NCBI GenBank assembly: GCA_016281495.1
Contig: JAEEIU010000046.1
Span: 62,001-126,000, forward strand
Direction: 5' to 3'
DNA length: 64,000 bases
Source: Treponema sp.
GTDB lineage: Bacteria; Spirochaetota; Spirochaetia; Treponematales; Treponemataceae
The translations under genes and the position numbers were made by a program. This document shows positions 61,017 through 64,000 of this stretch, piece after piece (position 1 is the first letter of the stretch; each line of letters starts with the position of its first letter). The notes beneath the pieces are model-generated. The model saw nothing but the letters and a program-made list of their open reading frames with translations, did no database searches and had not been told where the DNA came from.

Positions 61017-61898
61017 TCAGCGGCATGCCATCGCTATGCGTTTAGCCCTGACTTCCTCAAGATAGGACTTCATGTCTTCTGCGTTGGAGGTGGCAATGTC
61101 ATTCTTCAGGACAGCAAGGGCCTTTTCAAAATTGTCTATGTGCTGGACAAGCTTTTCCCTGTTGCTGATAAAAAGCTCAGTCCACAAAGGTGCGTTTATC
61201 ATCGCTATGCGGGTCAAATCTTCAAAACTACCGCCGCCAAAAGCCGTAATATCCGGACCGTCGGCACTTTGAACCAGGGCGCTTGCAATAACGTGGCACA
61301 GCTGGCTTGTAAATCCGATTTTCCAGTCGTGTGTATCACATGATGTTTCTGTTATCCGGGAGAACCCCATCTCGCCAATCAGGTTTTTAAAAAGCAGGAC
61401 ATTCTCCTCCTTGTTTTCTTTTCTTGGACAAAGAATGTAATTGTGGTTTATGAAATATTTTGCGTTAGATGCGGCATAACCTTCTTTTTCTCCGCCGGCC
61501 ATTGGATGCCCGATTATAAAGTCAACATCATCACGAACCAGGGATTCACCCTCGTCTATGAAGATCCCCTTGACACCGCTTATATCAGTAATGATTGAAC
61601 CCGACTTGAAGCTATCCCTGTGCTGCTTTAGGAAGTCAACAGTGGCATGAGGATAAAGACATACGAAAACAATGTCACAGTCACCGAGCATCTGGTCCAC
61701 CTGATCGGAGGTAAAGGTTTTGTCGGTGATTCCTTCCTGCATGGCAAGGTTAAGGCATGCAGTACTTCGGTTGCAGGCATAGATCTTTCCGCTAGAGCTT
61801 GAACGGTTCAGGATGTTCTGCCTGATTGATTTGGCAAAAGAACCTCCCATGATTCCAAGCCCCACAATTCCGTATGTCAATTCATCAAGTCGCTTCAT
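61017..61898 (-). CDS. tyrA: Prephenate dehydrogenase
   Basis: YGIVGLGIMGGSFAKSIRQN, CDIVFVCLYPHATVDFL, ITDISGVKG, FIIGHPMAGGEKEGYAAS. Confidence 0.92.
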   Translation of the reverse strand: MKRLDELTYGIVGLGIMGGSFAKSIRQNILNRSSSSGKIYACNRSTACLNLAMQEGITDKTFTSDQVDQMLGDCDIVFVCLYPHATVDFLKQHRDSFKSGSIITDISGVKGIFIDEGESLVRDDVDFIIGHPMAGGEKEGYAASNAKYFINHNYILCPRKENKEENVLLFKNLIGEMGFSRITETSCDTHDWKIGFTSQLCHVIASALVQSADGPDITAFGGGSFEDLTRIAMINAPLWTELFISNREKLVQHIDNFEKALAVLKNDIATSNAEDMKSYLEEVRAKRIAMACR

Positions 61899-61910: not shown

Positions 61911-62945
61911 TTACATCGTCTTGTCATCAACGGCTGCAATCTTGTTTAGCTTTTGCATCAATTCCTCGAACATGACAGGTGTAAGCTGCTGGGATGCATC
62001 ACTCAATGCCTTTTCAGGATTACAGTGGACTTCAATTTCAAGACTGTCGGCACCGATTGCAACAGCCGCCTTTGCAAGATCACCTACCATCCATCTTAGA
62101 CCACAGGCATGACTCGGATCGATTACAACCGGAAGATGGCTCACCTTGTGAAGGTATGGAACTGCGCTCAAGTCAAGGCAGTTGCGGGTGTAGTTGTCAT
62201 AGTAACGGATTCCGCGCTCACAGAGGATGACATTTTCATTTCCGTTTGCCATGATGTATTCAGCAGACATCAAGAGTTCTGTAAGGGTTCCGGACAAGCC
62301 CCTCTTTAGAAGAATTGGTTTTCCGCATTTTCCAAGTTCCTTAAGAAGATCAAAGTTCTGGAAATTGCGTGCCCCAATTTGAATCAAGTCAACATCATTA
62401 AAAAAGCCAAGTTCAGAGATGGACATAAGCTCAGTGCAGATTGGAAGTCCTGTTTCTTTTTTTGCCATGGAAAGGAGTTTGAGGCCTTTGACACCAAGCC
62501 CCTGGAAACTGTACGGGGAAGTACGGGGTTTGTATGCTCCACCGCGAAGTATGCGTGCACCCGCCTTTTTTACAGCATTAGCCGCATCCATTATCTGTTC
62601 CTCAGATTCAACAGAACATGGACCTGCAATCACCGGAATTGTCTTTCCGTCTCCGATGGTACATGAAACGACTCCGCTCTGACCGCCTCCAACAGTTACA
62701 ACAGTATTCTGCGGATGGAATGAACGGCTTGCCATCTTGTAAGGTGCAGAAACACGTTCAGCTGACTCAACTATATCGTTTGCAAGGAAATCCTCAGGAT
62801 CAAGCTTTGAAGTATCTCCCAAAAGCCCGATAAGCGTTTTGTTCACACCAGTAGAAAGGTGAACGCCCAGCCCCTTTTCCTTTACGCTCTCGATAAACTT
62901 GTCAACGGCACTTTTATCCGTTCCCTGCTTCAATACAATAATCAT
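61911..62945 (-). CDS. aroF: 3-deoxy-7-phosphoheptulonate synthase
   Basis: IPVIAGPCSVESEEQIMDAA, GARILRGGAYKPRTSPYSFQGLG, VIDPSHACGLRWMVGDLAKAAVAIGADSLEIEVH. Confidence 0.95.
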   Translation of the reverse strand: MIIVLKQGTDKSAVDKFIESVKEKGLGVHLSTGVNKTLIGLLGDTSKLDPEDFLANDIVESAERVSAPYKMASRSFHPQNTVVTVGGGQSGVVSCTIGDGKTIPVIAGPCSVESEEQIMDAANAVKKAGARILRGGAYKPRTSPYSFQGLGVKGLKLLSMAKKETGLPICTELMSISELGFFNDVDLIQIGARNFQNFDLLKELGKCGKPILLKRGLSGTLTELLMSAEYIMANGNENVILCERGIRYYDNYTRNCLDLSAVPYLHKVSHLPVVIDPSHACGLRWMVGDLAKAAVAIGADSLEIEVHCNPEKALSDASQQLTPVMFEELMQKLNKIAAVDDKTM

Positions 62946-62974
62946 TTTCTTTTCTCCTTGTCAGATATATATGC

Positions 62975-63007
62975 AAAAAAAAGGACCCTCCTTTGCGGAA
63001 GGTCCCT
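62975..63007 (-). terminator. Attenuator terminator upstream of aroF
   Basis: Minus strand AGGGACCTTCC-GCAAA-GGAGGGTCC followed by TTTTTTTTT: 9-bp stem with one G:U pair. Confidence 0.85.
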
Positions 63008-63035
63008 GTATTTACCGGTATCACAACACACACCG

Positions 63036-63143
63036 TTATACGGCAAAACTTCCGCGCGCAGATGAGGAATAATAAAAGCCAAAATAAAAGTAGGCCAACA
63101 ATGAGGAATAGATTTTCTGCGCCCAACGGGTTGTGTTTTTCAT
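63036..63143 (-). CDS. Putative aromatic leader peptide (35 aa) of aroF-tyrA
   Basis: Minus-strand ATG..TAA: MKNTTRWAQKIYSSLLAYFYFGFYYSSSARGSFAV*; 7 of 8 residues in YFYFGFYY are Phe/Tyr; followed by terminator then aroF. Not in the ORF track. Confidence 0.75.
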   Translation of the reverse strand: MKNTTRWAQKIYSSLLAYFYFGFYYSSSARGSFAV

Positions 63144-63152
63144 AGTGGCTTT

Positions 63153-63181
63153 AAACTAGCATATTAAGGGAAAGATGTCAA
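63153..63181 (-). promoter_or_regulatory. Promoter of the aro leader
   Basis: Minus strand TTGACA (63181-63176), 17 nt, TAGTTT (63158-63153). Confidence 0.6.
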
Positions 63182-63205
63182 CATGGATTTTTAATGAAAC
63201 AAAGC

Positions 63206-64000
63206 CTAGTCCGAAAAGATGAAGCCTATGCATGAAGGTGTCTTCCGGTAGGTTGAATATGAAAGTCCGCTTTTATTCCCCAATCGCAATGCAGTTGTCG
63301 TACCGCCGTCAAGTTCAAGAGCATCCGTACATCCAAGCCTTTTGAAGATTCGGGCACACTGGGCATAAGAAAGTCCCCTGCTCTGTTCGGGGAACTCCCC
63401 TTCTGCTGCAAGAACATAGAGGGTCTTTCCACCGTCTGCAATTCCCACCGCCATCCTGGAATCGTATGTATGACGTGAAAACTTCACTTCCACGCCATTT
63501 TCAAGAACGGAATAAAATCCTCCAAAAACATACTGATGCTTTTCAACTGACTTTGCATCCTGATCAGGCAAAACAAAGGCCTCGTATCCGCCATCGGTTT
63601 TGTCAAACGCAAGGGCCGCATGATTTTTTACCGGAGCAAAAACAGTTTCACCCTGCACCTTATGTACCCCGACTATCTTTGTGCGTGAATCAATTACAGA
63701 TTCAAACGGACTTGAGTTGAACGAAACGGCACATGAATTTTCTTTGGAAAAATCAGAAAGATGAATGCGCAAAACCTTATCGTCCTTAACATCGTCCGGC
63801 ATCGGGTAGCAGACAAGGCTCAAATCAGGCGCGGAAAGATCCACACGGACAAGGGTATACAAGATGGGAAAACGGCTGTTATGGTATCTGGCATGGCTCA
63901 GCCCCGGACGCACTTGAATCCACTCATATTCTTCCGGGATATAGAGGGCCTCTGACTCCAAAATCTGTTCATCTGTAAGCGAATATGAAAGAGAAAGGCA
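63206..64000 (-). CDS. Phosphodiester glycosidase (NAGPA-like) family protein, N-terminus beyond window
   Basis: RMAVGIADGGKTLYVLAAEGEFPEQSRGLSYAQCARIFKRLGCTDALELDGGTTTALRL; frame stays open upstream to base 64000 (CLSLSYSLTDEQILESEALY...), so the listed TTG start is probably not real. Confidence 0.82.
   Translation of the reverse strand, partial: CLSLSYSLTDEQILESEALYIPEEYEWIQVRPGLSHARYHNSRFPILYTLVRVDLSAPDLSLVCYPMPDDVKDDKVLRIHLSDFSKENSCAVSFNSSPFESVIDSRTKIVGVHKVQGETVFAPVKNHAALAFDKTDGGYEAFVLPDQDAKSVEKHQYVFGGFYSVLENGVEVKFSRHTYDSRMAVGIADGGKTLYVLAAEGEFPEQSRGLSYAQCARIFKRLGCTDALELDGGTTTALRLGNKSGLSYSTYRKTPSCIGFIFSD

Follow-up and report, generated by a model that had tools for sequence, protein, structure and literature searches.

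Known attenuators of aromatic biosynthesis

The attenuators of the enteric trp, phe and his operons (the Yanofsky type) combine control codons in a leader peptide with a terminator, an alternative antiterminator and masking of strand 2 by a ribosome at the stop codon; in the trp attenuator, segment 1 contains the control codons. The principle has also been recognized in front of aroF. In Corynebacterium glutamicum, according to PMC11802643, citing Neshat et al. 2014, the aroR-aroF attenuator relies on a leader peptide with Phe-Tyr-Phe to control aroF. The uORFC-13-1 motif, reported only from Acholeplasma and environmental sequences, includes a candidate aroF uORF with an RBS (PMC8632094). Leader peptides can also be leaderless in attenuators, as with trpL of Sinorhizobium meliloti (PMC7298713) and leuL1 and leuL2 of Streptomyces lividans (PMC8079986). 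For spirochaetes, the Leptospira ilvB motif, with only seven representatives, is a candidate BCAA uORF (PMC10272879), and a 2005 list of putative attenuators before tyrA operons includes no spirochaetes in the covered part of its table (PMC1173090).

The locus presented here, in front of aroF-tyrA of a Treponema, is with high confidence a real attenuator that joins this known kind, with an apparently leaderless start and a 5' helix that are unusual. It shares with the enteric systems the control codons, the terminator, the alternative antiterminator and the predicted masking of strand 2 by a ribosome at the stop codon, and differs from them in a leader that lacks a Shine-Dalgarno sequence. As with AroR of C. 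glutamicum, as described in the source cited above, a leader peptide with aromatic codons stands before an operon with a DAHP synthase gene; on comparison of peptides and operons, the phylum is another one, the Treponema run is longer and richer in Tyr, and the operon is aroF-tyrA. The uORFC-13-1 motif likewise places a promoter, a candidate uORF with Phe codons and a terminator before aroF, and it too has an extra base-paired substructure (PMC8632094); its description sets it apart, however, in that the Acholeplasma motif has an RBS whereas the Treponema leaders do not. The S. meliloti and S. lividans peptides are read from transcripts that start at their own start codon, as we infer for Treponema, but they serve other amino acids in other phyla, and their starts have been mapped. 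The Leptospira motif resembles the present locus as candidate leader-peptide attenuation in a spirochaete and differs in amino acids and gene. An initial sequence-only reading of the locus knew of no described treponeme example, and none was found in the searchable literature, which did not include the survey of Lopatovskaya et al. 2010; the principle of such control at aroF is nonetheless familiar from Corynebacterium and Acholeplasma.

The leader region of aroF-tyrA

The stretch of DNA analysed (the window) comprises 64,000 nucleotides of a Treponema sp. contig (JAEEIU010000046.1, positions 62,001 to 126,000), from a genome of 3.2 Mb; in the named collection, its close relatives are Treponema sp. 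known mostly from rumen or gut metagenome assemblies. Inspection of the minus strand from 63181 to 62945, on which all features below lie, identifies a promoter, a 35-codon ORF and a strong terminator, followed by aroF-tyrA. The promoter (63153-63181) consists of TTGACA (63181-63176), a 17-nt spacer and TAGTTT (63158-63153), with 9 nt between the end of this -10 box and the leader ATG at 63143. The leader ORF (63036-63143; MKNTTRWAQKIYSSLLAYFYFGFYYSSSARGSFAV) is apparently leaderless and holds its putative control codons, YFYFGFYY, at codons 18-25 (63069-63092).

Comparative tests (see “Covariation of the terminator and antiterminator” and “A second long-range helix”) assign the RNA segments. 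Segment 1 (codons 2-8, 63120-63138) is the 5' half of a long-range helix with segment X (63024-63045), which ends 16 nt before the terminator. Segment 2, the 5' strand of the antiterminator, is the GCGGAAG within the leader ORF (63049-63055), and it is complementary to segment 3, CTTCCGC (63001-62995). The intrinsic terminator hairpin (62981-63007) has a 5' arm at 63007-62997, the loop GCAAA, a 3' arm at 62991-62981 and an energy of -19.0 kcal/mol, and is followed by a T run reaching 62975. Downstream lie the Shine-Dalgarno sequence AAGGAG (62954-62959), then aroF (61911-62945, ATG at 62945), encoding a 3-deoxy-7-phosphoheptulonate (DAHP) synthase with PF00793 and an N-terminal PF18152 domain, and tyrA (61017-61898), of the prephenate dehydrogenase family (PF02153, PF20463), which usually adjoins the 3' side of aroF in relatives.

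The promoter, ORF, hairpin, Shine-Dalgarno sequence and aroF all lie where the sequence-only reading had placed them. Its hairpin stands, with a T run of 8 in place of the 9 it had counted; its complementarity of GCGGAAG in the ORF to CTTCCGC in the terminator 5' arm also holds, with the frame over the element corrected to GCG CGC GGA AGT. It had included neither the apparently leaderless nature of the ORF nor the pairing of its 5' end with a segment just before the terminator.

In our view, this region very probably attenuates transcription of aroF-tyrA by a ribosome-mediated mechanism in which the charging of tRNA-Tyr and tRNA-Phe is the signal. What the sequence establishes is the set of parts, how they are conserved and covary, and the switch between folds in the model; from these we infer the start site, translation of the leader, the response to amino acids and the role of helix 1:X. 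Transcription would begin at, or no more than about 3 nt from, the leader ATG, and a ribosome would load on the 5' end without a Shine-Dalgarno sequence. With charged Tyr and Phe tRNAs, it would reach the stop codon and mask segment 2, whereupon the 3:4 terminator would form and transcription would stop before aroF. With low charging, the ribosome would wait at YFYFGFYY, leaving segment 2 free to pair with segment 3; this 2:3 pairing would block the terminator and allow aroF-tyrA to be transcribed. Once the first ribosome has gone, 1:X would most likely shut the leader, favouring termination and hiding the leaderless start.

Conservation of the leader across the order

Leaders of this form are widespread in the Treponematales. 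Upstream regions of aroF were scanned for an ORF of 12-65 codons with an ATG start and at least 5 of 10 residues Phe, Tyr or Trp, preceded by a promoter that agrees in 9 or more of 12 positions and ends 4-11 nt before the ATG. Of 114 distinct regions of the order, 73 have such an aromatic-rich short ORF immediately downstream of a promoter; the antisense strand gave 0 and ten shuffles gave 0-1, which excludes chance. When the promoter rule is relaxed slightly, 73 of 89 regions qualify in the window's family and 5 of 25 in a second family; the scan was empty in the other 16 and 20 regions, respectively, and the second family has a few further aromatic ORFs with other promoters. Conservation of the ORF and its Phe/Tyr run, which the sequence-only reading had proposed as a check, extends to about 80% of aroF upstream regions in the window's family.

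Loci of other arrangement were also seen. In one (L038), the promoter and terminator are kept and the aromatic leader ORF is lost, likely a decayed copy; in four (L024, L027, L034, L035), aroF directly follows another gene and has no leader; and in two (L015, L020), aroF is apparently transcribed without one.

Among 43 close aroF relatives, most upstream regions contain a recognizable homologue of the leader, with a consensus near MKNTTRWAQIINFSSLAYFYFSFYWFS..., and the closest species share a well-conserved peptide, RWAQKIN-SSLAYFYFSFYW. Across the order the peptide diverges until it is nearly unrecognizable, while the aromatic run persists (for example MKNITYAYYYYWYSHNACRVLAK and MNMSAEKKGFSYYYYFYYYPLPAENGPA). 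The 78 leaders analysed contain 13.7% Tyr, 9.7% Phe and 2.1% Trp, a Tyr/Phe-rich composition that matches an operon containing tyrA; in most leader-bearing loci, tyrA lies just 3' of aroF.

This pattern bears on the alternative that survives best, in which the nascent aromatic peptide itself arrests the ribosome in response to a small molecule or drug, the same hairpins relay the arrest, and the signal is something other than amino-acid supply. The switch would then look identical, and the good conservation of the peptide among the closest species is in keeping with such a role. Order-wide turnover of the peptide around a constant Tyr/Phe run, however, is what codon sensing predicts and a specific arrest peptide does not, and the controlled gene makes the very amino acids that the run requires. 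We regard peptide arrest as very unlikely, and sensing of charged tRNA-Tyr and tRNA-Phe by codon reading as the preferred explanation.

Covariation of the terminator and antiterminator

A terminator lies behind the leader ORF in all 78 leaders. For each, the antiterminator strand was taken as the best complement of the terminator 5' arm plus loop, and in 77 of 78 this strand starts inside the leader ORF. The duplex formed with a leader's own terminator averages -15.2 kcal/mol, as against -10.9 kcal/mol when partners are swapped between species; the own pairing is the stronger one in 76 of 78 leaders (Wilcoxon p=2.6e-14). The leaders are related, so p-values of this kind count lineages repeatedly, and the safer figure is that of a reduced set with one leader per peptide prefix, where the own duplex is better in 50 of 53. 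Dinucleotide shuffles are beaten at p<=0.05 in 59 of 78 leaders. For the window alone, the same comparison gives p of about 0.1, and its single-sequence fold has only a slight advantage over shuffles (z -1.7); support for the antiterminator is comparative. Column-based counting of pairs was dropped in favour of this alignment-free own-versus-swapped test, as MAFFT placed the antiterminator strand wrongly for several species.

The exchanges themselves are plain. GCGGAAG:CTTCCGC of the window is replaced by CAGAGTTC:GAACTCTG in the group with YAYYYYWY and by AAGGAGT:ACTCCTT in T. porcinum; the covariation that the sequence-only reading had proposed as a check is seen in divergent relatives as other complementary pairs. 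Its expectation of mutually exclusive folds is likewise borne out in a partition-function model, in which the position of the ribosome flips the RNA between antiterminator and terminator. With a ribosome at the first aromatic codon, the predicted antiterminator probability exceeds 0.5 in 70 of 78 leaders; for a ribosome at the stop codon, that of the terminator exceeds 0.8 in 75 of 78. All RNA upstream of the leading edge of the ribosome is counted as unavailable in this model, and a minority of leaders have segment 2 so far upstream, at more than 24 nt from the end of the stop codon, that a ribosome at stop would give partial cover. When the RNA is folded at equilibrium with no ribosome present, the antiterminator is predicted in the window (0.91) and in 47 of 78 leaders, so default termination in untranslated RNA is unsupported there. 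Overall, comparison across relatives strongly supports the reading of the locus as a ribosome-mediated attenuator.

Two further explanations have to be weighed against these results. In the first, a T-box or a protein-binding (TRAP-like) attenuator acts on aroF, and the ORF is incidental. In Firmicutes, T-boxes and other attenuators do regulate aromatic genes. The part of the 2005 list noted above also has putative attenuators in front of tyrA operons (PMC1173090). A scan of the window from 62500 to 63500 finds no Rfam family near threshold, T-box RF00230 included; moreover, an incidental ORF is at odds with an antiterminator strand that starts inside it in nearly every leader and with the retention of both the ORF and its aromatic run, and we give this explanation hardly any credence. 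Equally improbable is that the ORF is simply a small-protein gene that ends in a terminator of its own, with aroF transcribed independently from a second promoter: the ORF does have a promoter of its own and two relatives (L015, L020) apparently transcribe aroF without a leader, but such a gene offers no reason for species-specific complementarity between the 3' part of the ORF and the terminator arm. Further points against it are the unconserved peptide, the composition and the association with aroF throughout the order.

A probable leaderless start

In the ribosome-mediated attenuator favoured here, the ribosome would have to begin without the usual signal. In every one of the 78 leaders, 6-11 nt separate the end of the -10 box from the ATG (4-11 nt being permitted in the scan), a spacing that places the probable transcription start near the ATG. 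No Shine-Dalgarno sequence is apparent at the leader starts by anti-Shine-Dalgarno duplex energy, which is -0.8 kcal/mol (shuffled, -1.4) versus -8.7 kcal/mol at aroF starts; all 43 aroF starts tested fall below -5 kcal/mol and have a strong Shine-Dalgarno sequence. A pyrimidine occupies position -1 of the leader ATG in 71 of 78, which fits an initiator at the A of the start codon. Promoter geometry and the missing Shine-Dalgarno sequence agree in suggesting that the leader ORF is likely leaderless.

A similar arrangement is seen elsewhere in the window genome. A promoter followed within 5-10 nt by ATG occurs 48 times, as compared with 22 for a promoter-GTA control, and many of the ORFs behind this pattern are long. 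From this excess and the length of the ORFs, leaderless mRNAs are probably common in this Treponema. One example (L112, minus strand, in the region of G000:C36:173578-173615) is an ORF rich in Thr and Cys, MKFNFTTGTNKTLTNTTTNTCGRTCLCPGCKV, likewise leaderless, with a terminator and then a methyltransferase-like ORF behind it.

A second long-range helix

Codons 2-8 of the leader (segment 1) pair with segment X, which is located 3' of the antiterminator strand. The helix starts within the first 8 nt and X lies 12-20 nt before the terminator in 69% of 52 non-redundant leaders, as against 19% of shuffles (p=2e-15). A leader's own 1:X pairs are better than swapped ones in 60 of 78 (p=2.8e-8), and RNAalifold recovers 1:X independently. 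The helix and the terminator can form together, nested, but its pairing crosses that of the antiterminator.

It is in this element that the Treponema leaders depart from the enteric architecture to which the sequence-only reading had likened them. The parts of the switch correspond; the 5' element usually lies outside the cover of the stalled ribosome, unlike the textbook trp arrangement; when a ribosome stalls at the first aromatic codon, its footprint does not reach segment 1 in 30 of 36 leaders. The role that we prefer is that 1:X would most likely close the start codon behind the pioneer ribosome. We do not claim that 1:X enforces termination by default, since the antiterminator is still the favoured fold of ribosome-free RNA in 47 of 78 leaders.

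More tentatively, and with less confidence than doubt, these features may represent a distinct attenuator design for leaderless messages. Once X has been made, the start codon would be locked, such that only a pioneer ribosome coupled to RNA polymerase could read the leader; in the antitermination state, 1:X might persist alongside the antiterminator, the two forming a pseudoknot about the stalled ribosome, and the design might serve other pathways, such as leuA, across the Treponematales.

Leaders at other genes

Related observations at other loci fall within and outside the order. In the window genome, a leuA-like gene (L225, G000:C36, minus strand) is preceded by a leaderless leucine-rich leader, MNRTLLLLELNASSGCRN, behind TTGACT-17-TATAAA, and among Treponema leuA loci (L225-L254) 23 of 30 have a leaderless leucine-rich leader and then a conserved terminator. 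Covariation of the antiterminator in the leuA set is not significant (p=0.08); the leader and terminator suggest attenuation at Treponema leuA. No leaders were seen upstream of hisG, two ilvB-like genes or a second leuA-like gene, nor upstream of trpE in the window genome. A second DAHP synthase encoded there (L082, G000:C9:10634), a 636-aa protein, carries a fused prephenate dehydratase domain, and no leader peptide lies upstream of it.

Many of the related aroF genes of Firmicutes and others (L044-L080) have unrelated aromatic-rich leaders, mostly led by a Shine-Dalgarno sequence, with a terminator and antiterminator. For 24 such loci the antiterminator is again better with its own partner (-14.7 versus -10.0 kcal/mol swapped, p=5.6e-5), and no T-box was found at most of the Firmicutes and other aroF loci scanned.

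Implications for the Treponematales

Amino-acid attenuation, strongly supported here, is extended to the Treponematales, for which no earlier description was found. A single pathway has retained its switch while the sequence of the peptide has turned over almost entirely. The leaders also suggest that Treponema uses leaderless mRNAs, and that attenuation can operate with the ribosome loading on a bare AUG. Coupling between the first ribosome and RNA polymerase thereby becomes testable in a simple system, in which sequestration of the start codon is a possible form of one-shot control.
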